Shown here one piece after another: positions 36,451 through 55,040 of a DNA stretch of 64,000 nucleotides (position 1 is the stretch's first letter; each line of letters begins with the position of its first letter). A program made the position numbers and the translations under genes. This stretch comes from Salinicola aestuarinus (GTDB lineage: Bacteria > Pseudomonadota > Gammaproteobacteria > Pseudomonadales > Halomonadaceae), in assembly GCF_003206645.1 (NCBI RefSeq), contig NZ_PZJP01000005.1, positions 618,904-682,903 of the forward strand. Direction: 5' to 3'. Below the pieces are notes generated by a model. It saw nothing but the letters and a program-made list of their open reading frames with translations. It searched no databases and was not told where the DNA came from.

Positions 36451-36591
36451 AACACGAGGGCCGGCGCAAACCGGCCCGGGCATGACAGTGCCACCCTTCC
36501 TTTTGCGGTGCATCGGGTGCAGGGTGGCATACCCTCGAGAGGGAGCCGGCCCGGTTGGGCTGGCCTGTCACTGCCTGCCGGGAACCTCACC

Positions 36592-37068
36592 ATGACCACC
36601 GTCGCCATCTTCGTCGACACCCAGAACGTCTACTACACCGCGCGTGAAGCCTACGGCAAGCACTTCGACTATCGCCGCTTCTGGGCCAAGGCGACGGCGG
36701 GGCGAGAGGTGCTCACCGCGCGCTGTTACGCCACCGACAAGGGAGACGCCAAGCAGCGCGGCTTCCAGAACACGCTGCGCACGATCGGCTTCGAGGTGAA
36801 GTTGAAGCCCTTCATTCAGCGCGCGGATGGCTCCGCCAAGGGCGACTGGGATGTCGGCATCACGCTCGACGCCATCGAGTTCGCGGCGCGGGCAGATGTC
36901 ATCGTGCTGGTCTCCGGCGACGGCGACTTCGACCTGCTGGCACAGAAGATTCGCGAGGCGCACGGCAAGCGCGTCGAGGTCTACGGCGTACCCCGGCTGA
37001 CCGCCAATTCGCTGATCCGCTCGGCGAGCGAGTTCATGCCCATCGAAGGCGAGCTGCTGCTGGGCTAG
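36592..37068 (+). CDS. NYN-domain (LabA/DUF88) putative nuclease
   Basis: A 158-residue NYN-domain protein of the LabA/DUF88 group, a PIN-like fold often acting on RNA. The metal-binding aspartates are in place: VAIFVDTQNVYY at the N-terminus, KGDWDVGITLDAI in the middle and VLVSGDGDFDLLAQKI. The C-terminus (GKRVEVYGVPRLTANSLIRS) is typical. The exact substrate is unknown. The ATG at 36592 gives the conserved N-terminus; the upstream in-frame extension has no family match. Confidence 0.88.
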   Translation: MTTVAIFVDTQNVYYTAREAYGKHFDYRRFWAKATAGREVLTARCYATDKGDAKQRGFQNTLRTIGFEVKLKPFIQRADGSAKGDWDVGITLDAIEFAARADVIVLVSGDGDFDLLAQKIREAHGKRVEVYGVPRLTANSLIRSASEFMPIEGELLLG

Positions 37069-37090
37069 CGCGCGGCACCGTGACCCGCGG

Positions 37091-39315: not shown

Positions 39316-39382
39316 TACATTTGCCACACAGACGCCAAGGTTGTCGCGGTAAGTCGCCAATATAATTGTCGGCCTCAGCGCA

Positions 39383-39401
39383 GTAAATGCTAATCATTAT
39401 T
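39383..39401 (+). promoter_or_regulatory. Fur box upstream of the siderophore receptor
   Basis: A 19-bp site with the perfect core TAATCATTAT (39391-39400) matches about 15 of 19 positions of the Fur consensus. It lies 20 bases before the receptor ATG and just after a -10-like TATAAT (39361-39366), a good position for iron-dependent repression. Confidence 0.75.
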
Positions 39402-39420
39402 ATTCAACCAAGGGTCAGTC

Positions 39421-41730
39421 ATGACGTATCGCGCCTCGAAAGCCACCGGCAACGTCTTCCACGGATCAAGGACGCCGCTCGCCGCGGCGATCGCCGCCAC
39501 CCTCGGCGGCTGTCTGCTGAGCACGCCGGCTCTGGCACAGTCCGCTGGGGCCGAGACGCCTGACGACTCGACGACGGTGCTGGCGCCGGTAACGGTTCAG
39601 GGCACCTACCAGGGTTATCCGTCGCGAAGCTATACGGTTTCCGAAACGAGCAGCGCGACCGGCCTTAGCCTGTCACAGCGGGAGACGCCGCAGTCGGTCA
39701 CCAGTCTCACGCGTCAGCAGCTCGACGACCGTCAGGTGGTCAACATCGCCCAGGCGCTTGAACTCACGCCGGGCGTCACGTCGAACGAGACCGAGGTCGG
39801 TGGCCGAACGGCGTTTCGAGCGCGCGGCTATGACATCAGCAACTGGAAGGTCGATGGCCTGCAGTTTCCGGGGGGCTCGGATTTCAGCGGCGGCGGCAAC
39901 GCCTTGAACATGGATCTCTATGAGCGTGTCGACATCGTGCGCGGCGCCAATGGACTGCTCGGCGGCACCGGCGACCCCTCGGCCACGGTCGATCTGATCC
40001 GCAAACGCCCGCAAAAGACCTTTGGCGGCAGCGCCTACGGCCGCTACGGTCGCTGGGACCAGCGCCGCATCGGTGCCGATCTGAACGTGCCGCTGACCGA
40101 GGATGGCAGCGTTCGCTCGCGCTTTGTCATCACGCAGCAGGAGGGCAACGCCTTCCGCGACAACGAGTCGACCCGCGCCCGCGCCGCACTGGCCAACTTC
40201 GAAGCCGACGTCACCGAGGACACCACGCTGGGACTTGGCTATCAGTACGAGTACAACAAGACCTTCGGGGCAGGGTGGGGCGCCAACGTGCCGATCTGGT
40301 ACGCCGACGGAGAAAAGGCCGATCTCTCCCGCAGTACCAATCTGGCGCCTGACTGGAGCTATGGCGAATACCAGACCGACACGGTGTTCGGTTCGGTGAG
40401 CCACCGCTTCAACGAGGACTGGACGCTTGATGTACGCGCAGCGCAAAGCGACACCGAAGCGGTCAATCATCGCGGTCTGGCCAAGGTCAACCGGGGGGGC
40501 GGTGGCACCTTTATCGGCTACTGGGATCAGGACGGTAGCGGCGCGATCCTGAACGGCCTGCACAACAGCACCGACACCCGCACGCGCTCGGTCCGTGTCG
40601 ATCTGGACGGCGTCTATGACCTGTTCGGGCGCGAGCACGAGGTGATGGTCGGCTACAACGACAGCCGCACCGTCGAGCGAAGCCCGGAATATTCGTGCAC
40701 CATGTCCAGCGCCACCGCCTCGGTCGACTCCTCGCGCTGCATGTACCGCGCCACCAACGGCCTGCCGATCTCCGACTGGCGAAACGGTGTCGATGGCGAT
40801 ATCGACCTCGATGCCTCCCGGACCGGACGCAGCGGCAAGACCGTCACGCGGCTTCGCGGTCTCTACGCCGCGACCCGCCTGAACGTGACCGAGCCGCTCT
40901 CGATCATTCTCGGGGCGCGGACCAGCAACTACAAAACGGTGAGCGATAGCGCGTCCGGCGATCACACCAGCCGCAGCGAAGATGGCGTCTTCACGCCCTA
41001 TGCCGGTGTGGTGTACGACCTTTCGGACAATTACTCGGTCTACGCAAGCTACACCAATCAGTTCACCCCGCAGAGCGAGGAAACCTCCAGCGGGTCGATG
41101 GTCGAGCCGATCAAAGGCGAGAGCTACGAGACCGGTATCAAGGGGGCGTGGTTCGATGGGCGCCTGAATGCTTCCGCGGCGTACTTCCGCACCAAGCAGG
41201 AAAATACCGCGGTGCGCGATGGCGCCAGCCTGACGCCGACCGGCGATCAGGCCTATACCGCTGGCACCGGTAACGAAACCGAAGGGCTCGATGTCGAGGT
41301 TGCCGGGGCGATCACACCGAACTGGAACGTCTACGGGGGCTACACCTATCTGCATTTCCGCCGGGTGGATTCCGACGGCCGCAGCGATCCCTCGCACCTG
41401 TTCAAGCTTTCTACCACCTACGCGCCCGGTGGATCCCTGAACCGCTGGACCTTCGGCGGCGGCGTGTACGCCCAAAGCCACATCGACGCGGTCTCGGGCC
41501 CGGCCGGTCAGCCGTCCAACGGGGTCAGCACCGGACCCACCGACGTCAAATGGCCGGGCTACGCGATCTGGAACGCCATGGCCCGCTACGACATTACCGA
41601 TGCCACCAGCCTGACGGTGAACGTCGACAACCTCTTCGATCAGCACTACTACACCCGCTACGGATTCTATGCCGGCGCCATTTACGGCAATCCGCGCAGC
41701 GCCTCGGTCACGCTTCGCACTCACTTCTAA
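39421..41730 (+). CDS. TonB-dependent siderophore receptor
   Basis: A 769-residue outer-membrane receptor. It has a signal peptide (to about residue 40, TPALAQS), a TonB-box-like segment APVTVQG, a plug domain (ETPQSVTSLTRQQLDDRQV through GANGLLGGTGDPSATVDLIRKRP, the FhuE/FpvA-type siderophore receptor pattern), and a 22-strand barrel ending in HF (VTLRTHF). The C-terminal Phe is the usual barrel-assembly signal. It imports ferric siderophores using TonB energy. Iron control through the Fur box just upstream is likely. The ligand cannot be named; hydroxamate types are common for this branch. Confidence 0.93.
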   Translation: MTYRASKATGNVFHGSRTPLAAAIAATLGGCLLSTPALAQSAGAETPDDSTTVLAPVTVQGTYQGYPSRSYTVSETSSATGLSLSQRETPQSVTSLTRQQLDDRQVVNIAQALELTPGVTSNETEVGGRTAFRARGYDISNWKVDGLQFPGGSDFSGGGNALNMDLYERVDIVRGANGLLGGTGDPSATVDLIRKRPQKTFGGSAYGRYGRWDQRRIGADLNVPLTEDGSVRSRFVITQQEGNAFRDNESTRARAALANFEADVTEDTTLGLGYQYEYNKTFGAGWGANVPIWYADGEKADLSRSTNLAPDWSYGEYQTDTVFGSVSHRFNEDWTLDVRAAQSDTEAVNHRGLAKVNRGGGGTFIGYWDQDGSGAILNGLHNSTDTRTRSVRVDLDGVYDLFGREHEVMVGYNDSRTVERSPEYSCTMSSATASVDSSRCMYRATNGLPISDWRNGVDGDIDLDASRTGRSGKTVTRLRGLYAATRLNVTEPLSIILGARTSNYKTVSDSASGDHTSRSEDGVFTPYAGVVYDLSDNYSVYASYTNQFTPQSEETSSGSMVEPIKGESYETGIKGAWFDGRLNASAAYFRTKQENTAVRDGASLTPTGDQAYTAGTGNETEGLDVEVAGAITPNWNVYGGYTYLHFRRVDSDGRSDPSHLFKLSTTYAPGGSLNRWTFGGGVYAQSHIDAVSGPAGQPSNGVSTGPTDVKWPGYAIWNAMARYDITDATSLTVNVDNLFDQHYYTRYGFYAGAIYGNPRSASVTLRTHF

Positions 41731-41784
41731 GCGCTTGATTCACGTAGAGCACGGGTCGCGCCTTTCATTGGCGCCCCGGCCATT

Positions 41785-41816
41785 AGCGCCCCTGTCGGTT
41801 CGCCGGCAGGGGCGCT
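41785..41816. terminator. Hairpin between convergent genes
   Basis: A 10-bp perfect stem AGCGCCCCTG / CAGGGGCGCT with a 12-base loop lies between the receptor gene and the hydrolase gene; it has a weak T content after it. Confidence 0.65.
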
Positions 41817-41855
41817 TCGGGGGTTACCCCATCCGGCGGGCAGCAGCGCTGGGGG

Positions 41856-42776
41856 TCAGGGGTGTCTCAAATGGTTGGCAAAGAATCGACCGACGTAGGC
41901 GAACACCTCGTGGCATTCGACACTCGACCGCTCTGGCGCGTCACTCTGAGAGACATGCCACGTCCGCGGGCCGTCATCGTCCAGCGCGTTGCGGTTGAAG
42001 AAGCCGTGCCCCAGCCCCTCGATCAGCCCCAGGATGGCGGGATTGTCGCTGCGCGAGAGCGCCTCGAACAGTAGCCGGCTCTGCTGCCACGGCACGGCGG
42101 TGTCGCTCAGGCCATGCAGAATCAGCATCGGTGGCAGACCGGATTCCAGATACGTGATCGGATTGGCCGCCGCCACTTGCGCCGGCGCGTCCTCGATGGG
42201 AACGCCGATGAACAGCGATTCCATCGAGTCGGCATCGGCGCTGAACTTGCCCGCCGGCATCTGGATGGACTCCGGGTCGTCGGAAGGCACGCCGTCGGGG
42301 TCGCGAAACGCATCCTGCTGCAGAAAATCGGTCGGTCCGTAGCCATCGACCACCGCTCGTACCTGCTCATCGAATTCGCCGTAGTCGTGGCCAGGAAAGC
42401 GCGCAGGACCCGCGGTGACGGCCAGCGTCGCCAGATGCGCGCCGGCGGAGGAGCCCCATAGCCCGAGTCGCTCGGCGTCGAAGCCGTAGGTGTCGGCGAC
42501 GGATTTGACCCAGCGGATGGCGGTCTTGACGTCCTCGATCGCCGCCGGAAAGGGCGCCTGATCGGATAGGCGGTAGTCGACGCTGATCATGGCGAACCCC
42601 TCGCGAGCGAAAAAGCGCGACAGGTCCGGGGCCAGTTTGCGATCGCCGAATTTCCAGCCGCCCCCGTGCAGGAAGAGAATCACCGGTGGCTTGTCGTCTC
42701 GCTCAGGCAGATAGAGATCGGCCTTGAGTGCCACATCGTCGATGGTGATGTAGGTGATATCCAGCACGGTTTTCAC
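41856..42776 (-). CDS. Alpha/beta hydrolase (esterase, HSL-like)
   Basis: A 306-residue alpha/beta hydrolase. The oxyanion-hole motif FLHGGGWKFGD is followed by the nucleophile elbow LWGSSAGAHLAT, an acid residue near LHGLSDTAVP and the catalytic His in GLGHGFFN. The order fits the esterase/lipase branch related to hormone-sensitive lipase and bacterial feruloyl-type esterases. The start is GTG at 42776, because a near-perfect ribosome binding site (GAGGAG) lies 6 bases before it; longer in-frame starts reach into the next gene. It follows the quercetinase gene by 58 bases and is probably in its operon. Confidence 0.87.
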   Translation of the reverse strand: MKTVLDITYITIDDVALKADLYLPERDDKPPVILFLHGGGWKFGDRKLAPDLSRFFAREGFAMISVDYRLSDQAPFPAAIEDVKTAIRWVKSVADTYGFDAERLGLWGSSAGAHLATLAVTAGPARFPGHDYGEFDEQVRAVVDGYGPTDFLQQDAFRDPDGVPSDDPESIQMPAGKFSADADSMESLFIGVPIEDAPAQVAAANPITYLESGLPPMLILHGLSDTAVPWQQSRLLFEALSRSDNPAILGLIEGLGHGFFNRNALDDDGPRTWHVSQSDAPERSSVECHEVFAYVGRFFANHLRHP

Positions 42777-42834
42777 AGGGTTCTCCTCGAGAATCGGTGT
42801 CTGTCGAGCCGTTGAACGATGGCCCGACATCGGT

Positions 42835-43923
42835 TCATGTCGCGGGCCCGTCGCCCTGGCCCAGCGGCTGCAGGTCCAGCTCGTCGAGATGCGCAAGCAC
42901 CCGGTCGAATCGGAAAGCGGGCGGATTCAGCGGGAACACGTGGCCGTCGTAGGGTTCACCCAGATAGCGGAAGAAGGGCTCGAAGATACCCGGCACCAGC
43001 CAGCCGAAAAAGCGCGTGTAGGGGGCATCCAGCCGGTAGGCATGGACGTGGCGAGCGGGTACCTGCAGATAGTCGCCGGGCAGGAGCTTCACCTCCTGAC
43101 CGTTGACCCACATGGTCATGTGGCCATCCAGACAGAAGAAGTTCTCCGTGTGCTCGCGATGGTAGTGCGGCGGAATGGCCTCGCCCTTTGGCCCCTCGTT
43201 CATGATGGCGATGAATTGATCGCCGCTGGAGGCCTGGGTCTGCAGGAACGAGAAAAGCTGTTCGGCGGCGACCAGACGCTCGCCGGTACCGGCGGCCAGC
43301 ACGTAGGGGACCTTGTCGGTCGGCACCTGGTCGTTGGTCACGCGCACCGCGGGGGTCGCCGGCACAGCCGCCTCGACGAAGGTGACGTCGGCGACCGCCT
43401 CGGCTGCGCGGAGCCGTTCCTCGTCGATCGAGACATCGGCCTGCTCCGGTTGGACCGGGCGCGAGAACGCAACGCCCAGGGCCGGGTACATGGCGCCGAC
43501 GCGATCGCCGGTGGTCCAGGTCAGAAAGCGGGTGCGCCAGTCGATCAGGGTATGGGCGTAGACCGTACCCGCCGGCACGTAGGCGTAATCGCCCCGATTG
43601 AGCAGGTGGCGCTCGCCGTCGATCAGCAACTCCACGCTGCCGTCGAGCACCAGAAAGGCGGCGTCACTCTCGGCATGAGCGCGGGGCGGAAGGTAGGCCC
43701 CCTTGCCGCCGGTCACTACGGCCGCCTCGAACTGCCCGGCGGACTCCTCCCCGCGAGCGATCAGCGTCACCACCTGGCCACCCACCCGATGAAACTCACC
43801 TTCACCGTCGCGCAGGGCGTAGAGCGCTTCGCAACCGGGCAGCGTGCCGTTGGCCAGCAGGGCGGCTTCCGGTCCGGTGACCGGACCGGCGTCTTGCGGG
43901 TCGGGGGCGGTGTTCTGAGACAT
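42835..43923 (-). CDS. Bicupin quercetin 2,3-dioxygenase-like protein
   Basis: A 362-residue protein with two cupin domains. The C-terminal cupin keeps the full metal site: PPHYHREHTENFFCLDG (two His and Glu) and the distal His in VPARHVHAYR. The N-terminal cupin has PRAHAESDAAFLVLDG and VPAGTVYAHTL, a partial site. Bacterial bicupin quercetinases open the flavonol ring with O2, releasing CO. Flavonols are plant compounds, so this points to contact with plant material. The ATG at 43923 has a strong ribosome binding site (AGAGGAG). It is first in an operon with the hydrolase and is divergent from a LysR gene. Other aromatic substrates cannot be excluded. Confidence 0.8.
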   Translation of the reverse strand: MSQNTAPDPQDAGPVTGPEAALLANGTLPGCEALYALRDGEGEFHRVGGQVVTLIARGEESAGQFEAAVVTGGKGAYLPPRAHAESDAAFLVLDGSVELLIDGERHLLNRGDYAYVPAGTVYAHTLIDWRTRFLTWTTGDRVGAMYPALGVAFSRPVQPEQADVSIDEERLRAAEAVADVTFVEAAVPATPAVRVTNDQVPTDKVPYVLAAGTGERLVAAEQLFSFLQTQASSGDQFIAIMNEGPKGEAIPPHYHREHTENFFCLDGHMTMWVNGQEVKLLPGDYLQVPARHVHAYRLDAPYTRFFGWLVPGIFEPFFRYLGEPYDGHVFPLNPPAFRFDRVLAHLDELDLQPLGQGDGPAT

Positions 43924-44009
43924 GTCGACACTCCTCTTGCTGTGATCTAACGATGACCGCGAGGATAGTTAGCTCAGAGTCTTCAGTGAAATAGATTGTT
44001 CTGTCGTCT

Positions 44010-44030
44010 GTGATCATTCAAGTTGATCAC
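44010..44030. promoter_or_regulatory. Palindromic operator candidate, quercetinase / LysR
   Basis: GTGATCA-N7-TGATCAC is a perfect 21-bp inverted repeat in the 137-bp divergent spacer, 30 bases before the LysR start and about 90 from the quercetinase start. It is a good candidate for binding by the LysR protein or another repressor. Confidence 0.55.
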
Positions 44031-44060
44031 AAGATGAGAGACGCTGAGCAAGGAGCGAGA

Positions 44061-44945
44061 GTGGAGCTACGACATCTGCGTTATTTTCTGGCCGTCGCCG
44101 AGACGCTGCATTTCGGCCGGGCCGCCGAGCGGCTCAATATCGTGCAGCCGGCACTCAGCATGCAGATCAAGGCGCTGGAGTCGACGCTGGAGGCGCAGCT
44201 TTTCATCCGCAACCGCCGGCAGGTGCGTCTGACGGCCGCCGGACTGGCCCTGGTGCCGGAGGCGCGGCGAATTCTCGAACAGGTAACGCACGCCGGGGAG
44301 GTGGTTCGCCAGACGGCGGCCGGGGTGCTCGGCAGCGTGCGCCTGGGCTACGCCGCCAGTGCGCTCTACGCCGGCGTCCTCGGTCGGGTAGTGAAAGCGG
44401 TTCAGGCGGCCTGTCCCGATATCGAACTGCAGGTGAGCGAGCTGCATCCACACAGTCAACAGACGGCGCTTCGCGAAGACCGTCTGGATGCGACCTTCGG
44501 CCCGATGCTCTCCCTGACCCCGGATCCCGAATTCGAATACCGTCGATTGGCCGCGTTCCCGCTGCGACTGGCGCTACCCGAGGCACACCCGCTGGCCAAG
44601 CGCGAAACGCTCATGTCGGAGGACATTCGTCACGAGCGTTTTATCGGCTACGTTGGCGAACACGATGACGAGGGCGGCTATCTGATGGCGCGGGCGCTGG
44701 GGTATCAGCCAGTGATCGGCATGCAGGCCCGAAGTCCGGTCATTGCCCTGGGGCTGGTCGAGGCCGGGTTGGGGGTGACACTGGTCTCATCGATACTCGC
44801 GCCTCGTTTCCCGGAGGGTGTGGTCTATCGCGAGCTGGCCGACGTCGAGCTGGAGCTCGACGTTACGCTGATGATGCGACGCGAGGCGCAGGCTCCCGCC
44901 GTGCTGGCGTTTCGCCGGGTGCTCGAGACGCTCAGGTTGGGCTAG
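44061..44945 (+). CDS. LysR-type regulator (CatR/BenM-like branch)
   Basis: A 294-residue LysR regulator. The N-terminal helix-turn-helix is LRHLRYFLAVAETLHFGRAA then ERLNIVQPALSMQIKALE, as in the aromatic-catabolism branch. The start is GTG at 44061 because AAGGAG lies 5 bases before it and the family N-terminus begins there. It probably controls the divergent quercetinase operon in response to an aromatic compound. A strong terminator follows. Confidence 0.9.
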   Translation: MELRHLRYFLAVAETLHFGRAAERLNIVQPALSMQIKALESTLEAQLFIRNRRQVRLTAAGLALVPEARRILEQVTHAGEVVRQTAAGVLGSVRLGYAASALYAGVLGRVVKAVQAACPDIELQVSELHPHSQQTALREDRLDATFGPMLSLTPDPEFEYRRLAAFPLRLALPEAHPLAKRETLMSEDIRHERFIGYVGEHDDEGGYLMARALGYQPVIGMQARSPVIALGLVEAGLGVTLVSSILAPRFPEGVVYRELADVELELDVTLMMRREAQAPAVLAFRRVLETLRLG

Positions 44946-44983
44946 AAGGGGAGGAAGGCGCTTTTTGGTGTTTCGTGTCACGG

Positions 44984-45016
44984 CTCGAAAGGACCGCATC
45001 AGGCGGTCCTTTCGAG
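44984..45016. terminator. Bidirectional intrinsic terminator
   Basis: A perfect 14-bp stem CTCGAAAGGACCGC with a 5-base loop lies between the convergent LysR and substrate-binding-protein genes. Confidence 0.82.
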
Positions 45017-45035
45017 TGCCCTGACTCCCTGGTGA

Positions 45036-46550
45036 CTATTCGCTGAGTGAAACGTCTTCCAGGAAGAAACGCCCCATGGGGTTCTGATAGAAGTTACTCA
45101 CCGCCTTGGTAGATACATTGCGATAGGGGCTGTAGTAGAGGTCGATCCAGTTGACGTCCTGCTTCGCCATCTCCTGCAGTCTGGTGTACATCTCCTCGCG
45201 CACGTCCGGGTCCGTTGCAAGGCGTGCGTCGGCCACCAACTGAGTCACTTCAGGATTATCGTAACGCGTCATGTAGTTCATGTTGGCATCGTTGCCGAGC
45301 ACGAAGGTGGTTTTCTGGTCGGGGTCGAGAATATCGTTGGTCCAGTACATGACCGAAATATCGTAGTCACCATCAACCAGCATGCCCCAGCTCTGGCTTG
45401 GGTCTACTTTGGTCAGGTTGGCTCGAATGCCGACTGCGGAGAGTTGCTGCTGCAGCAGTACGGCAATTTGTTCGTCCACTTCATCACCGGCATTGACGAC
45501 ATAATCCAGCGTGAGATTGTCGACGCCAGCTTCTTCCAGCAGTGCCTTGGCTTTCTCGGGATCGTAACCCCGGGAGAGGTTGTCAGCGTTGTGGTACAGC
45601 GCGCCCATGGGGATGTAGGCGTTGGCAACCGTGCCGTAGCCGAACGTGACCGTATCGATGATTGACTGCTTATCGATGGCGTAGTCCAGCGCTTGACGCA
45701 CCTTGACGTCATCGAGCGGCGGATGGGAGTGATTGATCAGCAGGTGATCCTCGCGAGTAGAGGCATCCAGATGAACCGTGAGATTCGGGTCCGCTTCCAG
45801 TGAGCTGATACGCGAAAAGGGCACGTTGATCGCCGCGTCGATTTCACCGGCCTGGATTTTCAGCATGCGCGTATTGCTGTCCGGCAGGGTCAGCCAGTTC
45901 ACGCCATCGAGTTCGATACGATCCCTATCCCAGTAGTGAGGGTTCTTGCGCAGGATGACGCTTTCGCCGCGATTCCATTCCTCCAGCATGAAGGCGCCTG
46001 AACCGACAGGTGCTTGAGAGAAGGCTTCTTCCCCCACCTCCTGGAAATAATCCTTGGGGATGACGGAGGCGTTGGGCAGTGCCAGTTGCGAAAGGAAAGG
46101 CACTGAAGGTGCGCTTAACGTGATCACCAGCGTGTGGTCATCCTCGGCATCTGCCGACTCGATGATCTTGTAGGAGTCCGCCCAGAGCGATTTATCGTCA
46201 TTGCGAATCCGCATCAGGCTGAATGCGGCATCTTCTGCGGTGACGGGCGTCCCATCGGAAAATTTGGCATCCCGCATGGTCAGCGTATAAGTCTTGCCGT
46301 CTTCGGAGATAGTCCAGCTCTCCGCCAGTCCTGGCACTAATTCCGTTCCGCTTCTATCCAACGCGATCAATGGGTCGAAAATATTGGAAAAGATCCAGTT
46401 GTCAGCGTTCTGAGTCGTATTGATCGGGTCGAACGTCGTACTGTCCGCGCTGCGCCCGATGGTTAGGGTCGCGGCGGATACCAGTGAGCTGGCCAACAAC
46501 AAACCTAGGCAGCAGCAGTTGAGTAGGTGGCGCTTGAACGGTGTCGGCAT
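45036..46550 (-). CDS. Peptide ABC transporter, periplasmic substrate-binding protein
   Basis: A 504-residue family 5 (DppA/OppA-like) solute-binding protein. It has a signal peptide ending at VSAATL; the triple Cys (LLNCCCLG) lies inside the hydrophobic core and does not form a clear lipobox. Family marks are RSADSTTFDPINTTQNADNW, LVPGLAESWTISEDGKTYT and FSDGTPVTAEDAAFS. It is the last gene of the six-gene pip-ABC operon, 7 bases after the second ATPase gene. By analogy with the PipR-linked transporter of plant-associated pseudomonads, it could take up the peptide or ethanolamine-derived signal; that is inference. Confidence 0.93.
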   Translation of the reverse strand: MPTPFKRHLLNCCCLGLLLASSLVSAATLTIGRSADSTTFDPINTTQNADNWIFSNIFDPLIALDRSGTELVPGLAESWTISEDGKTYTLTMRDAKFSDGTPVTAEDAAFSLMRIRNDDKSLWADSYKIIESADAEDDHTLVITLSAPSVPFLSQLALPNASVIPKDYFQEVGEEAFSQAPVGSGAFMLEEWNRGESVILRKNPHYWDRDRIELDGVNWLTLPDSNTRMLKIQAGEIDAAINVPFSRISSLEADPNLTVHLDASTREDHLLINHSHPPLDDVKVRQALDYAIDKQSIIDTVTFGYGTVANAYIPMGALYHNADNLSRGYDPEKAKALLEEAGVDNLTLDYVVNAGDEVDEQIAVLLQQQLSAVGIRANLTKVDPSQSWGMLVDGDYDISVMYWTNDILDPDQKTTFVLGNDANMNYMTRYDNPEVTQLVADARLATDPDVREEMYTRLQEMAKQDVNWIDLYYSPYRNVSTKAVSNFYQNPMGRFFLEDVSLSE

Positions 46551-46557
46551 GTCTCTG

Positions 46558-47568
46558 TTACCTCATTGGGTCGGTCAGTCTTTCGGCTTCACCAGCCTCG
46601 AGAAGGCAGGCGTACTGGTGATTTCCATCGCCTCTCAGCTCGGGGGCTTCACCCTTTCGGCAAGCCTCCCGAGCGAAGCAACAACGAGTATGAAAGGCAC
46701 AGCCATCAGGCAGGTCGAGTGGGCTCGGTGGCTCACCCCGCAGCAGCGTGTCCGGTAATCGGCGCTCAGGGTCGATATCCGGTATGGCGCTGATCAGAGC
46801 GGCGGTGTAGGGGTGTCGGGGATGGGAAAACACGCTCTCCGTTGGCCCCTCTTCGACGATTCGGCCCAAGTACATGACCGCTACCCGGTCGCAGAGTCGC
46901 CGGACGATACTCAAATCATGGGCAATAAAAAGCAGCGTTAAATTGATCTTGCGTTGCAGCTCCAGCAGCAGGTTGACGATCTGCGCCTGGATCGAGACAT
47001 CGAGTGCGGCAACACACTCATCCGCGACAATGAGGCGGGGCTCGATGGCGAGGGCGCGTGCGATCGCTGCGCGCTGGCACTGCCCCCCGCTGAGCTGCTT
47101 CGGATAGCGACTTTTATAGTCGCCACTCAGCCCGGTCAGGGTCAGCAACTCGTCGACTCTCGACGCTCGCTTCTCCGCGGAACATTTGCGGTGCACCTTG
47201 AGCACTTCGGCAATGGCCTCACCGAGGGTCTGGCGTGGATTGAGTGACGAGTAAGGGTCCTGAAAGATCATGGCCGTTTGCTGACGCAGGCGTGCTATAT
47301 CGCTCTGCGTCGCGTTGTCGAGCTGCAGGCCATCAAAGGTGATCGATCCGGCGCAGGATGGCTCGAGCTTGAGCATGGCGCGGCCGAGTGTGCTTTTGCC
47401 GCTTCCCGACTCGCCGACCAGACCCACGACGGAGCCGGGCTCGACCTGCAGTGATACGGCATTGACCGCATGCAATTTCTGCTTCAGAAACAGCCCTTTG
47501 AGCCCGGGACCGGTCACCGGAAAGCTCACACTGAGGCGCTCCACCTCCAATAGCGGATGACTACTCAT
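46558..47568 (-). CDS. Peptide ABC transporter ATP-binding protein (DppF-like)
   Basis: A 336-residue ATPase. Walker A is GESGSGKST, Q-loop MIFQDPYSSLNPRQ, signature LSGGQ, and Walker B LIVADECVAALD, in which the usual PT[S/T]A after DE is CVAA. The C-terminal oligopeptide-transporter extension holds cysteines (HTRCCFAREACRKG) that fit the iron-sulfur or Cys motif of this family. It overlaps the preceding ATPase gene by eight bases. It energises the transporter together with that second ATPase. Confidence 0.93.
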   Translation of the reverse strand: MSSHPLLEVERLSVSFPVTGPGLKGLFLKQKLHAVNAVSLQVEPGSVVGLVGESGSGKSTLGRAMLKLEPSCAGSITFDGLQLDNATQSDIARLRQQTAMIFQDPYSSLNPRQTLGEAIAEVLKVHRKCSAEKRASRVDELLTLTGLSGDYKSRYPKQLSGGQCQRAAIARALAIEPRLIVADECVAALDVSIQAQIVNLLLELQRKINLTLLFIAHDLSIVRRLCDRVAVMYLGRIVEEGPTESVFSHPRHPYTAALISAIPDIDPERRLPDTLLRGEPPSPLDLPDGCAFHTRCCFAREACRKGEAPELRGDGNHQYACLLEAGEAERLTDPMR

Positions 47569-48559
47569 GATCGAGCTCCCTGTGGATCAGTCGCTGGAGG
47601 GGGTAGTGACAGGCGACACGATGCCCGCTCTCTTGCGCGACATCGTGCACGACGGGCTGACGGGTCTGGCAACGCCGTTGGGCGTCGGGGCAACGGGGAT
47701 GGAAACGACAGCCCGCTGGCATCTCCTCGGCGGTCGGTGGCGCACCCGCAATGGTGGTCAAAGGCCCTTGGGCGTTGACGTTGGCGTGTGGCTGACAAGC
47801 GATCAGCCCGCGGGTGTAGGGGTGAGCGGGATGCTTCAGCAGATCCGCGGTCGCTGCAATCTCACAGATTCGGCCTCCGTAGAGAACGGCGACCCGGTCG
47901 CAGGTTTGCGCCACCACCCCCAGATCGTGAGTGATCATGATGATGCTCAGACCATGCTCCCGCCGCAGCCCGTCGAGCAGTTTCAGAATCTGAGCTTGTA
48001 CGGTCACATCCAGCGCCGTGGTCGGCTCATCGGCGATCAGAACTCGCGGTGAGCAGGCCAGCGCAATGGCAATCATGGCGCGCTGACGCATACCGCCGGA
48101 AAACTCATGAGCATGGCTGTCCAGTCGCTGTTCCGGCGAGGGGATTCCCACTTGCTCGAGTAGCGAGACAGAACGGGCTCTGATCTCCTTGCGAGACAGT
48201 CGCCCGCGTAGCCGCAGACTCTCCGCCATCTGCTGGCCGATGGTCATCAAGGGATTGATATGAGTCGACGGGTTCTGAAAGATCATGCCGACCCCGGCAC
48301 CCCGAAGTTGTCTCATCTCCCGCGGGCTCAGTCGCAGTAGATCGCGACCGTCGAAATCCACACGGCCGCCGGTAATCTGCAACGCGCCCTCCGGCAGCAG
48401 TTGCAAGAGGGCACGGCAGGTCAATGTCTTGCCAGAGCCGCTCTCGCCGACAAGGCCCAGCATTTCACCCGGCGCCAAACTGAACGACACCTGATCGACC
48501 AGGTTGAGACCGGCCCTCGTGGTGATGGTTAGGCTATCCACAGTCAGCAGCGGACTCAT
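47561..48559 (-). CDS. Peptide ABC transporter ATP-binding protein (DppD-like)
   Basis: A 332-residue ATPase with Walker A GESGSGKT, FQNPSTHINPL after the Q loop, signature FSGGMRQRAMIA and Walker B LIADEPTTALDV. The C-terminal extension carries the cysteines of the Opp/Dpp family (CRFHPRCPDAQRRC). It overlaps the permease gene before it by four bases (ATGA) and the second ATPase gene after it by eight, so the operon is translationally coupled. Confidence 0.93.
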   Translation of the reverse strand: MSPLLTVDSLTITTRAGLNLVDQVSFSLAPGEMLGLVGESGSGKTLTCRALLQLLPEGALQITGGRVDFDGRDLLRLSPREMRQLRGAGVGMIFQNPSTHINPLMTIGQQMAESLRLRGRLSRKEIRARSVSLLEQVGIPSPEQRLDSHAHEFSGGMRQRAMIAIALACSPRVLIADEPTTALDVTVQAQILKLLDGLRREHGLSIIMITHDLGVVAQTCDRVAVLYGGRICEIAATADLLKHPAHPYTRGLIACQPHANVNAQGPLTTIAGAPPTAEEMPAGCRFHPRCPDAQRRCQTRQPVVHDVAQESGHRVACHYPLQRLIHRELDHE

Positions 48560-49434
48560 TGCGTGCCTCCACGGTTTTCGCTCAAGCCATCAGCAATAAA
48601 GCTGAAACCCACGGCCAGCAGTACGATGGCGAGACCGGGGAAGGCGGTCAGCCACCAGGCGGTGGTGATAAAACCCTGACCTTCGGTGACCATCACCCCC
48701 CATTCGGCGACCGGTGGTTGAACGCCCAACCCGAGGTAGCTGATGGCGGCGCCATTCAGCAGTACCAGCACCACATCGGACATGGAAAACACCACGGCAT
48801 CGGTCAACACATTCGGCAGCAGGTGCTTGCAGATAATTCGGCTGTGGCTGTACCCCAGGCTTCTTGCCGCCAGCACGAAATCGCTCTGTTTGAGTACCAG
48901 AACGCGCGCCCTGACCAGGCGTGCGTAGGAGACCCAGCCCACCAGTGCCATGGCGATAAAGAAGCTGCTGAGACCCGGACCCAGAATCGTGATGATTGCG
49001 AGCATCAACACCAGGAATGGAAAGGCCAGCACGATATCGATCAGCCGCATCACGATCGCGTCGCACCAGCCGCCGATATAGCCGCTGAAAGTGCCCAGCA
49101 CCGTGCCGATGATGAACGGGAAGATCACACCCAGTAGACAGATCTGGAGATCGACCCGGGCGCTGTAGATGACGCGGGAGAGGATGTCCCTGCCGAAGTT
49201 ATCGGTACCCATCGGATGGGCCCAACTCATGGGGGCAAGGCGGGTAGTGAGATCCTGATAGACAGGGTCGTAAGGCGAAATCCAGGGTGCCAGCAGTGCC
49301 ACCAGGACCCACCCCAGCACGATCGCCAGACCAATTTTCAGGGTCGTGCGTTGAGACAGATCTCGGCTCAGCCTGCGCAGTGGAGCCGTCACGCGCTGTC
49401 CCATGGAGATCTGAGTCGAGGTGAGGGCCGTCAT
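48556..49434 (-). CDS. Peptide ABC transporter permease (DppC-like)
   Basis: A 292-residue inner-membrane permease with an N-terminal helix (about 33-55) and five more hydrophobic segments. The DppC start region (APWISPYDPVYQDLTTRL, HPMGTDNFGRDILSRVIY) is clear, and the EAA loop that touches the ATPase is ARSLGYSHSRIICKHLLPN. It overlaps both neighbours by four bases. It pairs with the DppB-like permease to form the channel. Confidence 0.93.
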   Translation of the reverse strand: MTALTSTQISMGQRVTAPLRRLSRDLSQRTTLKIGLAIVLGWVLVALLAPWISPYDPVYQDLTTRLAPMSWAHPMGTDNFGRDILSRVIYSARVDLQICLLGVIFPFIIGTVLGTFSGYIGGWCDAIVMRLIDIVLAFPFLVLMLAIITILGPGLSSFFIAMALVGWVSYARLVRARVLVLKQSDFVLAARSLGYSHSRIICKHLLPNVLTDAVVFSMSDVVLVLLNGAAISYLGLGVQPPVAEWGVMVTEGQGFITTAWWLTAFPGLAIVLLAVGFSFIADGLSENRGGTQ

Positions 49435-50369
49435 AGCTTGATCCTCGGGTCGATGAACACGGTGAGGATGTCCGCCAGCAGGTTCACCAGCACGGTAGAA
49501 AGAGCGAAGAAGAGCACCACGCCCTGCACCACCATGTAGTCCCGGCTGAAAATGGCTTTGATCAGCAACTGCCCAAGCCCGGGGATACCGAAAACGGATT
49601 CGATCACCACCGAGCCGCCGATCAGCCAGCTGACGTTAACGGCCAGCAGATTGATGATCGGTACGATGGCGTTGGGCATCACATGCCGCCAGAAGATATA
49701 GCGCTCTGACTGACCTCGGGCGAGTGCCGCGACGAAGTAGTCGGCACGCATCTCGCGGATCAGCGCTGACCTCAGGCTGCGGGTGAGCACGGCAGACAGC
49801 GATAGCGCTGCGGTGAGGCAGGGGATGAACAGGTGGTAAAGCTTCTCGCCAAGGCTATCGCCATAGCCGGAGACCGGAAACAGGCGCCAGGTGATGCTCA
49901 GCAGAATGATGAGCATGATGCCAAGCCAGAACGGGGGTAAGCCAAGGCCTGCCGTGGTGAGTAAGCGAATCACGTGGTCGGCGACCCCGCCACGACTTCT
50001 TGCTGCCCACGTTGCCAGAGGAAGCGCCAGTAGAACCGACAGCAGCACGCTACCCAAGATAAACATCGCCGTGGGTTCCAATCGCTCCAACAGCAAGGTC
50101 AGCGTGTCCGTCTTGTAGATGATCGAACGGCCCAGTTCGCCATCGAAGAGATGCTTGAGAAACAGTAGGTATTGCATCGGTAGCGGCTGATCCAGACCGT
50201 ACTCGGCATGGATACGGGCCAGCGCTTCCGGCGTGCTCCGGGTGCCCAGCAGTACCCTGGCTGGGTCACCGGGAATGGCGCGGACAAGCACAAAGGAAAT
50301 CGCACTGATACCGAACAGCACGGGTATCAGCTGAAGCGGTCGCAGTAGCAAGAATCGATATCGATGCAT
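49431..50369 (-). CDS. Peptide ABC transporter permease (DppB-like)
   Basis: A 312-residue inner-membrane permease. It has the DppB N-terminus (FGISAISFVLVRAIPGDPA), six hydrophobic segments and the EAA loop ALARGQSERYIFWRHVMPNA. It follows the pip gene by 20 bases and is the first transporter gene in the operon. Confidence 0.93.
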   Translation of the reverse strand: MHRYRFLLLRPLQLIPVLFGISAISFVLVRAIPGDPARVLLGTRSTPEALARIHAEYGLDQPLPMQYLLFLKHLFDGELGRSIIYKTDTLTLLLERLEPTAMFILGSVLLSVLLALPLATWAARSRGGVADHVIRLLTTAGLGLPPFWLGIMLIILLSITWRLFPVSGYGDSLGEKLYHLFIPCLTAALSLSAVLTRSLRSALIREMRADYFVAALARGQSERYIFWRHVMPNAIVPIINLLAVNVSWLIGGSVVIESVFGIPGLGQLLIKAIFSRDYMVVQGVVLFFALSTVLVNLLADILTVFIDPRIKL

Positions 50370-50389
50370 AACTGGCTGTCAGTCCTCGG

Positions 50390-51289
50390 TTAATGCGTCT
50401 GACGGCTGTGACGCTGCAGAAAATCAAGGAGTACCGGATAGTAGGCCTGTGGCTCTTCGTAGAAGGGCATATGGCTACTGTTGGGAAAGACCTGCAGCTC
50501 TGCGTGCGGCAACCCTTCCTTGATTCGTGCCGCGCAGGCCGGTGTCAGTTCGTCATGCTGTCCGGTCGTGATCAGCGCCGGCACCTTGACCGACTTGAGC
50601 GCTTCGACGCGGCACCAGTCCTTCAAGTTGCCGTTGTAGAGAAACTCATTAGGCCCCTGCATGGCTTCGTAAGGCGCCTTGTTCCAGTCGTTCAGCGAGC
50701 GTTCTACCGGCGCTGGCAAGTCATCCAACCGGCAGACATGGCGATAGTTGAGTAGCGTGAGCGCGGCCTGATAGGCGGGATGGTCTAGCTGGCCCAGTGC
50801 CTCGTGCCGGTTCATCATCGCGACGGTTTCGGGGCCAAGCGCCTCTCGCAGACGACCCAGCTCACGAGAGAGGTGGGGGATATCCGCGACGGTGTTCTCC
50901 AGGATCATTGTTTTCAGGTGTTCCGGGTAGGTGAGCGCGTATTCGATGGCCAACCAGCCGCCCCACGAGTGGCCAAGCATGTGGACTTTGTCCAGCTTGA
51001 GCGCCTCGCAAACCGATCGGACCTCTTCTACATAGCGTTCAATCGTCCAGAGATTATTGTCATCCGGGCGATCGGATGCCCCGGTTCCCAGCTGATCGAA
51101 AGCGATGATTCGGTAGCCAAATTCACTTAGGAAAGCGTGCGCTTCGCGAAGGTAGTCACAGGGTAAACCCGGCCCGCCATTCAGGCAGAGTATGACCTCT
51201 TCTCCCTTGCCGAACTCGTAGGCGAAGATCTTATAGCCGTCCACAGTAATCTCGTGGATGTCGTCTGCAGCGATTTCCCGATAGTTCAT
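50390..51289 (-). CDS. pip: Proline iminopeptidase, first gene of the pip-ABC operon
   Basis: A 299-residue alpha/beta hydrolase of the proline iminopeptidase family (peptidase S33), which removes N-terminal proline or similar residues from peptides and amides. The oxyanion motif LNGGPGLPCDYL, FDQLGTGASDRP, the nucleophile elbow GHSWGGWLA and the catalytic His in PNSSHMPFYEEP are all present. The ATG at 51289 is chosen because it gives the family length; a TTG at 51385 would add 32 residues. It leads the peptide transporter operon and is divergent from the LuxR-type gene. A pip gene next to a plant-type LuxR solo is the hallmark of the OryR/PipR group. Confidence 0.9.
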   Translation of the reverse strand: MNYREIAADDIHEITVDGYKIFAYEFGKGEEVILCLNGGPGLPCDYLREAHAFLSEFGYRIIAFDQLGTGASDRPDDNNLWTIERYVEEVRSVCEALKLDKVHMLGHSWGGWLAIEYALTYPEHLKTMILENTVADIPHLSRELGRLREALGPETVAMMNRHEALGQLDHPAYQAALTLLNYRHVCRLDDLPAPVERSLNDWNKAPYEAMQGPNEFLYNGNLKDWCRVEALKSVKVPALITTGQHDELTPACAARIKEGLPHAELQVFPNSSHMPFYEEPQAYYPVLLDFLQRHSRQTH

Positions 51290-51331
51290 GCTGTCGATGC
51301 CTGTCTCGATTCGGTTATTGATGGCATCAAC

Positions 51332-51424
51332 GTTACGAAAGAGAACAAGGGTATCGTAACTAGAAAAATTGATAGGTTTTGACAAGGACTAGAAAAGCGA
51401 AGAAATTCCGCACACTTTTAGTGC
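51332..51424. promoter_or_regulatory. Palindromes in the pip-luxR divergent spacer
   Basis: Two dyads lie in the AT-rich spacer. GTTACGA-N15-TCGTAAC (51332-51360) is in the pip leader. CGCAC-N7-GTGCG (51409-51425) lies about 105-120 bp from both starts. Either could be the LuxR-protein operator; neither matches the classical lux box (CTG-N10-CAG), and the assignment is only a suggestion. Confidence 0.4.
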
Positions 51425-51529
51425 GTATATTCACTTTATTTTCCAACTTGGTGCAACAGATTTTCCGCCTCTTTTCGCCATACGTCATTGCCAGCGAGAA
51501 TCGAGCTATCGTCGCTACAGGAGGAGGCG

Positions 51530-52330
51530 ATGCCAGGTGAACCGATGGCACTCATCTTGCATCATTATGCGGTTAGTATTCCATTCTCATTGGGGAAAGC
51601 CATGCCGCCGGCCAGTGATCGACATGCCCTTGATGCCGAGTTATCGAAATTGCAGGTGGAGACGGCAGCGCTGGGGTTTGAAGCCTTTATCTATGACTAT
51701 TCCCCTGTCCCTACCTCGATTGAAGGGGATTTGATAACACCGTCTTTTTTGCACATGGAGCGAGTTCCCCCGGACATGCAGGGGCTATGGTGCAATGATG
51801 GCTACTATCAGATCGATCCTGTTCAACAATTAGCGCTACAGTGTTGTGCTCCATTTGTATGGTCTTATCGCCATCCGGAACGCACTGCGCTAAAAGCGTT
51901 GGTGACGAAACGCGATCGGGTGGCGGAATACATGAACGATAATGATATTGCCTGTGGCCTGACAGTGCCGCTGCATCTTAGAGACGGTAGTTTTGCGACA
52001 TTGACGGGAATGAAGCATGGGCAAACTCATGAAGCGAGGCTGGAGGAGACAATGGCTGAATTTAGCCTTTTAGCTCATCAGTTTCATGATCGTGCGTATT
52101 CATGTTTTGGCAGTGATGCTCGCAATAGCAGTCCAGTGTCCCTTAGTAGTCGAGAAAAAGAGTGTCTGGCATACGCTGCCGAGGGGCTGACGGCGAAGCA
52201 GATTGCACGTCAGCTCAACCGCTCCACGGCGACGGTCAATCTGCATCTCAATTCGGCCATTCATAAGCTTGGGGCTAGCAATCGTGTTCAGGCCGTGGTG
52301 CGTGCCATTCACTATCGCCTTATCGATTAA
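51530..52330 (+). CDS. LuxR-type solo of the plant-associated (OryR/PipR) group
   Basis: A 266-residue regulator with an N-terminal autoinducer-binding domain (about 20-180) and a C-terminal LuxR helix-turn-helix (SREKECLAYAAEGLTAKQIA then RQLNRSTATVNLHLNSAIHKLG). In the ligand pocket, DMQGLW has Met and Trp where acyl-homoserine-lactone receptors have Trp57 and Tyr61. The IDP (Asp70, Pro71), FVW (Trp85) and ACG (Gly113) positions are kept. This Met/Trp pair marks solos that answer plant-derived compounds. No luxI gene is in the window. The ATG at 51530 has an AGGAGG site. The gene is more AT-rich than its neighbours, suggesting transfer. It sits between two pip genes and next to a peptide transporter, as PipR does. 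Confidence 0.88.
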   Translation: MPGEPMALILHHYAVSIPFSLGKAMPPASDRHALDAELSKLQVETAALGFEAFIYDYSPVPTSIEGDLITPSFLHMERVPPDMQGLWCNDGYYQIDPVQQLALQCCAPFVWSYRHPERTALKALVTKRDRVAEYMNDNDIACGLTVPLHLRDGSFATLTGMKHGQTHEARLEETMAEFSLLAHQFHDRAYSCFGSDARNSSPVSLSSREKECLAYAAEGLTAKQIARQLNRSTATVNLHLNSAIHKLGASNRVQAVVRAIHYRLID

Positions 52331-52418
52331 GTGGCGATGAACTAGCATTTTTGTTAGGTCACGTGCATCCAGGATTTGTTTAGTCTGGCGTCATTCTTCA
52401 TGAGTCAGGAGAGAGTGA

Positions 52419-53318
52419 ATGATGTCAGTCACTGAGGGGTGGGCCCCGTTCGGAGAGTACCAGACCTGGTACCGGATCACGGGAGACTTGAAAACATCGT
52501 CGCTGACGCCGGTGGTAGTGGTTCATGGTGGCCCTGGCTGCACGCACGACTATGTCGAGGCCTTCAAGGATCTGGCCGCCACCGGCCGACCGGTGATTCA
52601 TTACGATCAAATCGGCAACGGTCTCTCGACTCACCTGCCAGAAAAACCAACGGCATTCTGGCAGGTGTCACTGTTTCTGGACGAAATGGACAACCTGCTG
52701 CAGTGGCTGGGCATCCAAAAAGACTATCTGCTAATCGGGCAGTCCTGGGGAGGCATGCTCTGCGCTGAACATGCGGTACGTCGGCCTGGCGGGTTAAAAG
52801 GGTTGGTCGTCGCCAACTCACCGGCTTCCATGTCACTCTGGCTTGATGCAGCCTGCCAGCTGCGTGCTCAGTTGCCGACCGATGTCCAGGCGACACTTCT
52901 CGCTCATGAGGAGGCGGGAACCCTCAGTTCCGCCGAGTACAAGGCGGCATCGGACGTTTTCTACAAGCGACACGTCTGTCGTCTGGCGCAATGGCCTGCC
53001 GAAGTCACGCGAACTTTCGATGCCATCGATAATGATCCCACCGTTTATCACGCCATGAACGGTCCAACGGAGTTTCATGTCATCGGCACGATGAAAAGTT
53101 GGAGCATTATCGATCGGCTGGGGAACATCTCCGTACCGACACTGCTGATCTCCGGGCGTTACGACGAAGCGACGCGTGAAACAGTGAAGCCTTACGCAGA
53201 CCATATCGCCGATGTGGAATGGGAGGTATTTCAGGCATCCAGTCATATGCCTCACGTTGAGGAGCGCGAAGCCTGTATGGCCAGGGTGCAGCGCTTCTTT
53301 ACGGGAAAGGGCCTTTAG
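52419..53318 (+). CDS. pip: Second proline iminopeptidase, downstream of the LuxR gene
   Basis: A 299-residue proline iminopeptidase-family protein (MMSVTEGW start, or MSVTEGW three bases later; AGGAG lies 9 bases before the first). It has [24 protein letters not shown], the nucleophile motif [12 protein letters not shown] and the His in [11 protein letters not shown]. It is clearly related to the protein encoded at 50390 but diverged, so this is an old paralogue pair and not a recent duplicate. It lies 88 bases downstream of the LuxR gene on the same strand. Confidence 0.9.
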
Positions 53319-53360
53319 GGGGTATGGGTGCGGTAGCGGTTTTCTCGATAGAGGCTTGTG

Positions 53361-53384
53361 CAGAGCGGTAACCACGGCGCTCTG
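53361..53384. terminator. Weak hairpin between convergent genes
   Basis: A 7-bp stem CAGAGCG / CGCTCTG with a 10-base loop lies between the second pip gene and the DUF2252 gene. It lacks a T-run, so the terminator call is tentative. Confidence 0.4.
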
Positions 53385-53444
53385 GGACACACTGTCGGTC
53401 CTCACCGAGTCATGGACAGCACTCCGACCCATTGCAACGCTGAT

Positions 53445-55040
53445 TCAGCGATGGACCCAGTCCAGATGCTGGAACGCGCCGCGAGCGTGGTCTTCGCAGA
53501 ACAGCGCGTGATCGCGGCGGACGCGATCGGCAGCTTCGCTGGCGAATTCGACCATATCCTCAGCGAACAGCTTGGGCGGGCCGATGGCGTCGACGATGGC
53601 AGGCTCGATGTCGTAGTCGATCTTGCCGAGCTCGTCGGAGAGGGCATGCACGGTGGCAAGTACACGACCGCAGATACGGGCATACTCTCTCCACTCGCTT
53701 TTGGAGAGGTCGTCGAGATCGATGTCGTCGCGGAACGGCGCGCGTTCGCGAGACAGATAGCTCTGACCTTCGAATTCGACATGGCCGTAGAAGACGTCGC
53801 CACGAACCAGATGCACGGCCTGCGCATGACTCACCCGCTCGGCGAGCGTATCGACTTCATAGGCGGTAGGTGGGGCCAGGCCGGAGAGCGCGGAGCGCCG
53901 GGCCTGCTTGTATTCGATGATCAGGTCGTCGGTGCCATCGCCCTCGGGCCCTTCGATCAGTACGTAGTAGCGGTTGAGCCCGAGCGAGGCGGTGCCCTGG
54001 CCCAGACGGATGGCGACGTCCTTGACGCGCATGCCGGGTTGTCCGCGCTGGGCTTTCTTTCCGCTCTGGGCCTTCTTTTTACCCGGCGCTGACTTTTTAC
54101 CCATGGTGGCCGCGTCCGCACCAAGCGCCCGGTGCGGCACCTCGATGGCGTTCTCGGCGACCAGCTGGTCGGTGAGTCGCTGAAACTCGTCCCGGCGAGA
54201 GGAGATCGGCACCAATTTCTTCGTCGGCCGGAAACCGCTGCGGGTCTCGTCGAGGTAGTCATCCATCAGCCACTCGTCGCGAGCCTCGTCGGCGTCCTCG
54301 AACAGCTTGCGAATCAGCTTTGGCGCGTTGTCATGGCGCATCTCCTCATCGCGCTCGGTGCCCTCCCGCGATAGTCGCTGCATCTCGTTGATATACCCTT
54401 TCACGAAATGGCGCACGATCTTGGCCTGATGCTTTCGCTCGAGCTTGCCTTCCGTCTCGGCGGCGATCATGAAGCCGGTGGCCCCGCGTTTGAGATCCCA
54501 GGTAAAGGGAGCGTAGTAGGCCTCGTCGAAGTCGTTGACGGAGAAAATCGGCACGTTGTCGGCGTTGGGCATGACGCCGAAGTTCTCGGGGTGGACATCC
54601 CCGAGCGCGAGCACGGTCGGCATCCAGGCGTCGTCGCCGGCCATATCGCGGTAGAACAGCAGCGCCGTGCCGCGGAAGAAAGAGAACATTGAACCGGCGA
54701 GCTTATCGAACTTGTCGCCGGCCTCTTCGCAGCCCTCGGCGATACGGGTCTGGTGATCCTCGCGCAGGGTCTGGCGCAGATGTCGGCGTCTCTCGTGCCC
54801 GGATAGCGCCCGGGGTCGCAGCACGAACTCGCCGCTGGCCACGGCTTCGGCGAGGCGCTTGAAGGTCGCATAACGAGAGGCGATCTCTGGCGCCGGGGGC
54901 TCTGGCGTAGCGGTTTCCGACGTATGACGCGCCAGGGCGGCGGCGAGCTCGGCCTTGCTCATGGAAGCGCGGCCGGGAATCTCGCGCTGCTGTGCCTCGG
55001 CGTAGAGTGTCCTGCGGGTCGGTTCGGAGGATGTCGTCAT
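53445..55040 (-). CDS. DUF2252 protein with SAP-like N-terminus
   Basis: A 531-residue DUF2252 protein. The kinase-like centre is visible: ALGDVHPENFGVMP (recalling the HGDxHxxN catalytic loop of aminoglycoside-kinase folds) and FSVNDFDEAYYAP (the metal-binding Asp). The first ~40 residues (RRTLYAEAQQREIPGRASMS, KAELAAALARH) look like a Rho-N/SAP-type helical motif, an uncommon addition. A lysine-rich insert near residue 300 (GKKSAPGKKKAQSGKKAQRG) is probably disordered. The biochemical role of DUF2252 is unknown; phosphotransfer is inferred from fold only. It is a single gene. Confidence 0.82.
   Translation of the reverse strand: MTTSSEPTRRTLYAEAQQREIPGRASMSKAELAAALARHTSETATPEPPAPEIASRYATFKRLAEAVASGEFVLRPRALSGHERRRHLRQTLREDHQTRIAEGCEEAGDKFDKLAGSMFSFFRGTALLFYRDMAGDDAWMPTVLALGDVHPENFGVMPNADNVPIFSVNDFDEAYYAPFTWDLKRGATGFMIAAETEGKLERKHQAKIVRHFVKGYINEMQRLSREGTERDEEMRHDNAPKLIRKLFEDADEARDEWLMDDYLDETRSGFRPTKKLVPISSRRDEFQRLTDQLVAENAIEVPHRALGADAATMGKKSAPGKKKAQSGKKAQRGQPGMRVKDVAIRLGQGTASLGLNRYYVLIEGPEGDGTDDLIIEYKQARRSALSGLAPPTAYEVDTLAERVSHAQAVHLVRGDVFYGHVEFEGQSYLSRERAPFRDDIDLDDLSKSEWREYARICGRVLATVHALSDELGKIDYDIEPAIVDAIGPPKLFAEDMVEFASEAADRVRRDHALFCEDHARGAFQHLDWVHR

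Follow-up and report, generated by a model that had tools for sequence, protein, structure and literature searches.

The window, by which we mean the whole 64,000-nucleotide stretch of Salinicola aestuarinus DNA analyzed here, contains a luxR gene within a cassette of eight genes. Table 1 lists these genes together with the other features of the locus. A proline-iminopeptidase-family gene (pip1) and five ABC importer genes occupy the minus strand and diverge from luxR, and a second pip gene (pip2) lies 3′ of luxR. None of the eight reading frames is interrupted, each is full length compared with its homologues, and ribosome-site-like sequences precede luxR and pip2. The first-pass annotation placed proline iminopeptidase genes on both sides of luxR, and both neighbours indeed exceed the TIGR01250 cut-off of 167.65, the left one on the opposite strand. 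The importer half with its AapF-like protein, the promoter boxes and the insertion described below go beyond that annotation.

Table 1. Genes, candidate promoter boxes and the low-GC block at the luxR locus (window coordinates).
Feature	Coordinates	Strand	Basis or remark
Low-GC block, 8,522 bp, absent in G007 between LysR and DUF2252	44927..53448		DNA homology, GC
Substrate-binding protein, AapF-like	45036..46550	-	SBP_bac_5 347 bits; PDB 7kz8/7kz9 AapF 664 bits
ABC importer ATPase (OppF/DppF-type)	46558..47568	-	PF00005, PF08352; synteny
ABC importer ATPase (OppD-type)	47561..48559	-	PF00005, PF08352; synteny
ABC importer permease (aapC-like)	48556..49434	-	PF00528, PF12911 OppC_N; synteny
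ABC importer permease (aapB-like)	49431..50369	-	PF00528, PF19300; synteny
pip1, proline-iminopeptidase-family hydrolase (aapA-like)	50390..51289	-	TIGR01250 285.7 bits
Candidate lux-box-like 20-mer 5′ of pip1	51358..51377		centre 78.5 bp before ATG 51289
PAB-type LuxR solo (pipR-like), 266 aa	51530..52330	+	domains, pocket alignment, trees; M/W at TraR W57/Y61 positions
Candidate lux-box-like 20-mer 5′ of pip2	52340..52359		centre 69.5 bp before ATG 52419
pip2, proline-iminopeptidase-family hydrolase (pipA-like)	52419..53318	+	TIGR01250 252.6 bits; best solved relative 7a6g 460 bits

The solved proteins closest to both hydrolases are entitled proline iminopeptidases (7a6g, the best for pip2, is titled 'putative proline iminopeptidase'), and by eye the G-x-S-W-G-G, Asp and His motifs are retained in both. 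In six annotated records the start of the pip1 homologue lies at most one residue from ATG 51289. Because the blast query was itself the shorter form, these annotated starts are what counts as evidence for the ATG. TTG 51385 was rejected on their account, and ATG 51289 is the likely start. The substrate-binding protein scored 664 bits against AapF (7kz8 and 7kz9, taken as the GM79 AapF by entry name and cited title) compared with 193 bits for the next solved entry. As in GM79, a pip-family gene is collinear with the genes for an AapF-type binding protein and an ABC importer.

The luxR frame begins at ATG 51530, directly preceded by AGGAGG, and ends with its stop codon at 52330. Scored on a longer, TTG-initiated form, the protein reached 79.1 bits for the autoinducer-binding domain (cut-off 23) and 63.3 bits for the LuxR HTH domain (cut-off 23.5). 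HMMER paired M83, W87 and D96 with W60, Y64 and D73 of LasR, which we take to correspond to W57, Y61 and D70 of TraR. In an alignment of 31 LuxR rows, from which the Bradyrhizobium reading frame of locus L006 was excluded, as it was from the trees, the window protein carries V-M-W-D-W-G at TraR Y53/W57/Y61/D70/W85/G113. The Met and Trp first noticed at the W57 and Y61 positions were borne out by both comparisons. The accompanying claim that the other pocket residues are kept holds for D70, P71, W85 and G113 and fails for Y53, where the window protein has V; Y occupies this position in none of the 17 rows of the OryR/PipR (PAB) group. The M/W pocket occurs in 13 of these 17 rows and W/W in four, all from one Pseudomonas-like genus. 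W/Y is kept in 13 of the 14 non-PAB rows, the remaining row (G274) being unaligned in the pocket region. In the relevant passages of the literature the group pocket is M/W (PMC10134790) and that of PipR is W/W (PMC7301841).

Of 60 rows spread over 506 plasmid records matched by the window LuxR, 18 are full length, with 42–56% identity and 208–270 bits. As none of the remaining 42 scores above 76 bits, the likeness to these relatives is more than chance. A scan of genome contigs with the LuxR protein alone gave eight loci, none of which looks like a PAB solo from the tabulated matches: seven match chiefly the HTH end, and the eighth has 28% identity.

In its genome, of 3.87 Mb in 33 contigs at a completeness of 100, the window LuxR is the only protein found to have an autoinducer-binding domain. 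No luxI was found genome-wide (G000), in agreement with the proposed solo status; the same search was positive for all four plasmid records in which a luxI is annotated, and also for G945, a genome described below. In the 31-row luxR tree the 17 PAB rows, including the window, were separated from the 14 other LuxR rows with a support of 100/99; the program gave a long-branch warning, and Phenylobacterium joined beside the PAB clade. A second luxR tree, from which the Phenylobacterium row was removed and whose outgroup is four rows only, separated 20 PAB rows from this outgroup, likewise with 100/99. Both trees were built without the named OryR, NesR and PipR sequences. One further row, G880 (L037), belongs to the alignment and the 31-row tree and is absent from the synteny, half-site and shuffle tests, the second luxR tree and the four-protein tree. 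Proteins that respond to acyl-homoserine lactones (AHLs) are expected to retain W57 and Y61 and to group with AHL receptors; the window LuxR does neither. An AHL receptor with a luxI elsewhere in the genome was rejected on the basis of the luxI search and the 31-row luxR tree. Membership of the OryR/PipR (PAB) group, the central proposal of the first-pass annotation, is supported at the level of sequence by the tree placement away from the other LuxR rows, the M/W pocket, the pip flanks and the luxI search. That annotation drew the range of plant-type solos too narrowly, as mainly Xanthomonas, Pseudomonas and rhizobia: the lists of PAB solos given in parts of PMC4338825 and PMC10134790 also contain Enterobacterales, Rhodobacter and Citreicella.

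A comparison of the eight window proteins with 15 other PAB loci found the full set of eight cassette genes in 12 of them, and the idea that the pip genes are chance neighbours of luxR was rejected on these grounds. The Rahnella locus is missing pip1, and in the Aureimonas locus the importer is diverged and located on the other side. An exception to the pip hallmark is a PAB-type LuxR of G950 (L044, 8940–9746), which has an M/W pocket and is 51% identical; neither a pip gene nor an AapF-type importer was found in the surrounding 19-kb stretch, about 9 kb per side.

The gene content and order of the window cassette are like those of the GM79 PipR/aapA-F/pipA system (mBio 2016), which is described as running from aapF to aapA, pipR and pipA (PMC4981722, in part). 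Both systems have an AapF-like binding protein, and ahead of the downstream pip gene, at a distance of about 70 bp, lies a box, in the window a candidate one; they differ in host lineage and in the pocket, which is W/W in GM79 PipR and M/W in the window. The window pocket is therein closer to OryR and PsrR than to the HEHEAA-responsive PipR. Kosakonia PsrR (M/W, adjacent pip) gave no pip induction by rice root macerate, ethanolamine or HEHEAA in the experiments excerpted from PMC7301841, which counts against a plant-compound response of the window locus. By the literature, OryR and XccR of Xanthomonas share the M/W pocket and an adjoining pip gene with the window (PMC10134790, in part), but unlike the window they are without a linked ABC importer (PMC4981722, in part). 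The Klebsiella variicola and Rahnella cassettes have the pocket and gene order of the window, but they are plasmid-borne and the latter is without pip1. Rhizobial PAB solos and those of further Hyphomicrobiales resemble the window in their M/W pocket and in a pip1-importer unit divergent from luxR-pip2, whereas in five annotated Hyphomicrobiales records the two ATPases are fused as one reading frame. NesR is the described example among these solos. The eight genes of G945 follow the same order as in the window at 64–79% protein identity, again with an M/W pocket. Unlike the window genome, in which none was found, G945 has a luxI homologue (G945:C1:5435756-5436268). Because it lies far from the PAB solo, AHL signalling and a Pip system may coexist in G945.

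The two 20-mers upstream of pip1 and pip2 are identical at 15 of 20 bases, and we read them as candidate sites for the LuxR protein. The published GM79 site is centred 71.5 bp before pipA (PMC4981722, in part). Exact matches to the box pattern in the genome are these two sites only, the next match having two mismatches. As the pattern was built from the two boxes, a shuffle test is fairer, in which the best 20-mer identity between two 130-bp promoter regions was compared with 200 shuffles. The 15/20 of the window promoter pair was reached by 10 of 200 shuffles, which is marginal taken alone. Among 14 other loci, eight (Klebsiella and seven related Hyphomicrobiales) showed 17–18/20 at matching places, reached by 0–1 of 200 shuffles. 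The other six, namely G945, Rahnella, Aureimonas and three Pseudomonas-like loci, fell short of the 1-in-200 level (5, 9, 45, 62, 88 and 164 of 200 shuffles), and in G945 the top-matching promoter pair differs from its box pair. Scored by a half-site that was picked after the boxes had been seen, the Pseudomonas-like boxes are strong (11/12 in each promoter, a score seen in no more than 0.3% of 300 shuffles), and those of several other loci are not. G950 is absent from the half-site and shuffle tests. With up to three mismatches, the box pattern had 27 + 21 matches in the genome compared with 108 + 117 for the reversed pattern. This gives no support for sites beyond the two boxes, and a wider box-defined regulon was rejected. 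An inverted-repeat finder did not detect the boxes.

To place the cassette in its genomic context, we compared the window with G007, the genus member nearest by DUF2252 identity (93%), which shares eight flanking proteins at 80–93% identity. DNA homology between the two ends at 44926 and restarts at 53449, and in G007 a gap of 67 bp separates the aligned end of DUF2252 from that of LysR. The GC content of the intervening block is 57.4%, compared with 64.3% for the remaining window and 62.5–66.7% for 154 overlapping windows of block size elsewhere in it. With its own genome counted, a PAB-type protein was found in 1 of 18 genomes of the genus and 1 of 275 of the family, and in 7 of 390, 1 of 369 and 12 of 398 genomes sampled from the order, class and phylum. 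The family search gave three further matches of at most 52 bits, G058 and G259 with an AHL-type pocket and G274 unaligned there. Because no other searched genome of the genus has a PAB-type protein, we infer that the block is an insertion here rather than a loss in G007.

The window and G945 were joined with a support of 100/99 in the 31-row luxR tree, 94/98 in the second luxR tree and 100/100 in a tree of four proteins (binding protein, two permeases and pip2). This four-protein tree, which omits G950, Aureimonas and the four short loci L097–L100, replaced a tree of the binding protein only that had included the far Aureimonas row. Klebsiella and Rahnella join next in the 31-row luxR and four-protein trees, a step that the second luxR tree does not resolve. 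Since the luxR trees and the four-protein tree agree on the window and G945, the cassette seems to have been transferred as one unit. There is good evidence that its transfer into the window lineage was recent. Of the 22 genomes in its family, G945 alone carries a PAB-type protein. Its chitosanase matches PDB 6lwu at 242 of 243 residues, and a chitosanase structure has been published for Gynuella sunshinyii. G945, which holds the closest cassette found, is thus probably Gynuella sunshinyii, a salt-marsh-plant rhizobacterium; one table lists the source of this species as tidal flat sediment (PMC11966569, in part).

Taken together, we consider it highly probable that a complete PAB/Pip signalling cassette was gained here horizontally as a block, and that in it import of a plant compound leads through LuxR to induction of the pip and importer genes, with feedback. 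The AapF-type binding protein would capture a small peptide- or amide-like plant-derived compound, and the ABC importer would carry it into the cytoplasm. There the LuxR solo, its pocket altered away from AHLs, would bind the compound and then both 20-bp boxes, turning on pip2 and, in the opposite direction, the pip1-importer operon. Both peptidases would probably use or degrade the inducer or its derivative, which would result in negative feedback. We infer ligand import, LuxR activation and feedback in the window by analogy with the published work on GM79 PipR. There, leaf macerate, peptone and a tripeptide no longer elicited a response in a permease mutant, and the response was exaggerated in peptidase mutants (both from portions of PMC4981722), which supports import, sensing and peptidase feedback.

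The retention of D70, P71, W85 and G113, together with AHL production reported for Halomonadaceae species (PMC4187203, in part), would suit a solo that still answers the AHLs of its neighbours as an SdiA-like eavesdropper, with the pip genes adjacent by chance. However, both aromatic pocket residues are altered as in non-AHL solos, while nearly all non-PAB rows keep W/Y (13 of 14), and most other PAB solos (12 of 15) are surrounded by all eight cassette genes, so we regard this reading as extremely improbable. The cassette might instead be a decayed or silent passenger, inserted recently and unused. The rarity of PAB-type proteins in the genus and family (one genome in each) and the still foreign GC of the block are consistent with such a fate, but the eight full-length frames argue against it, as do the two boxes, which are in place, and the ribosome-site-like sequences ahead of luxR and of pip2; we consider it very unlikely.

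A different role for an active cassette would be nutritional: a peptide-scavenging operon, useful in any peptide-rich saline habitat, whose LuxR senses ordinary peptides or protein breakdown products and has no specific plant role. Its importer and two peptidases come from peptide-handling families, GM79 PipR responded to peptone, Ser-His-Ser and leaf macerate alike (PMC4981722, in part), and the Rahnella and Klebsiella variicola carriers are from food or human samples according to their records. By score, though, the binding protein is far nearer to AapF than to dipeptide or oligopeptide binders, and an AapF-like protein (E 1e-80) occurs, in a collection that is uneven, in 171 plasmid records, 142 of them from Rhizobium, Sinorhizobium or Neorhizobium. 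Scavenging is possible, if somewhat unlikely, and a plant-compound-responsive Pip cassette is the reading that we prefer.

The Pip/PAB system is already known; the window adds a member in an unusual host, probably a halophile. In the open-licence literature, supplements aside, we found no report of a Pip system in Halomonadaceae. The window would present a Pip system that moved, as a single module of eight genes, into a lineage for which no published case was found in that literature, and a close relative whose site is empty allows a clean comparison with and without it. The M/W pocket beside an AapF-type importer may provide a route to a second natural ligand of the family.

The neighbouring DNA was also inspected. 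The interval from a NYN gene to DUF2252 (36508–53448) is an apparent insertion hot spot. In four relatives the gap between these genes is about 0.05–1.4 kb, and another has a gap of 2.9 kb; in G007 it contains esterase, quercetinase and LysR genes, and the window adds a TonB receptor, a two-component pair (by eye) and the Pip cassette to this content. A bicupin gene adjoining the cassette (42835–43923, minus strand) matches quercetin 2,3-dioxygenase (2h0v, 335 bits). A BD-FAE-family esterase (41856–42896, minus strand) lies near the cassette and a LysR regulator (44010–44945, plus strand) beside it. All three genes are present in G007, and none was found around DUF2252 in the five other relatives. 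A function in plant-phenolic catabolism is possible.

Evidence for an association with halophytes is circumstantial: the closest cassette is probably that of Gynuella sunshinyii, and a quercetin-dioxygenase-like gene is adjacent. If the locus responds to halophyte material, it would be a tractable handle on plant detection by salt-tolerant bacteria. A more specific scenario, in which the window and G945 represent a saline-habitat Pip sublineage that spread into halophilic lineages as an eight-gene module and senses a halophyte- or salt-marsh-specific compound other than HEHEAA, appears unlikely; if true, the cassette would be a plant-sensing switch that close relatives lack. Further upstream, at 34409–36450, a DUF1852/methionine-synthase pair resembles pairs on Pantoea, Paracoccus, Shinella and Novosphingobium plasmids, with about 73–77% DNA identity to the plasmid pairs among the best ten of 65 matches.
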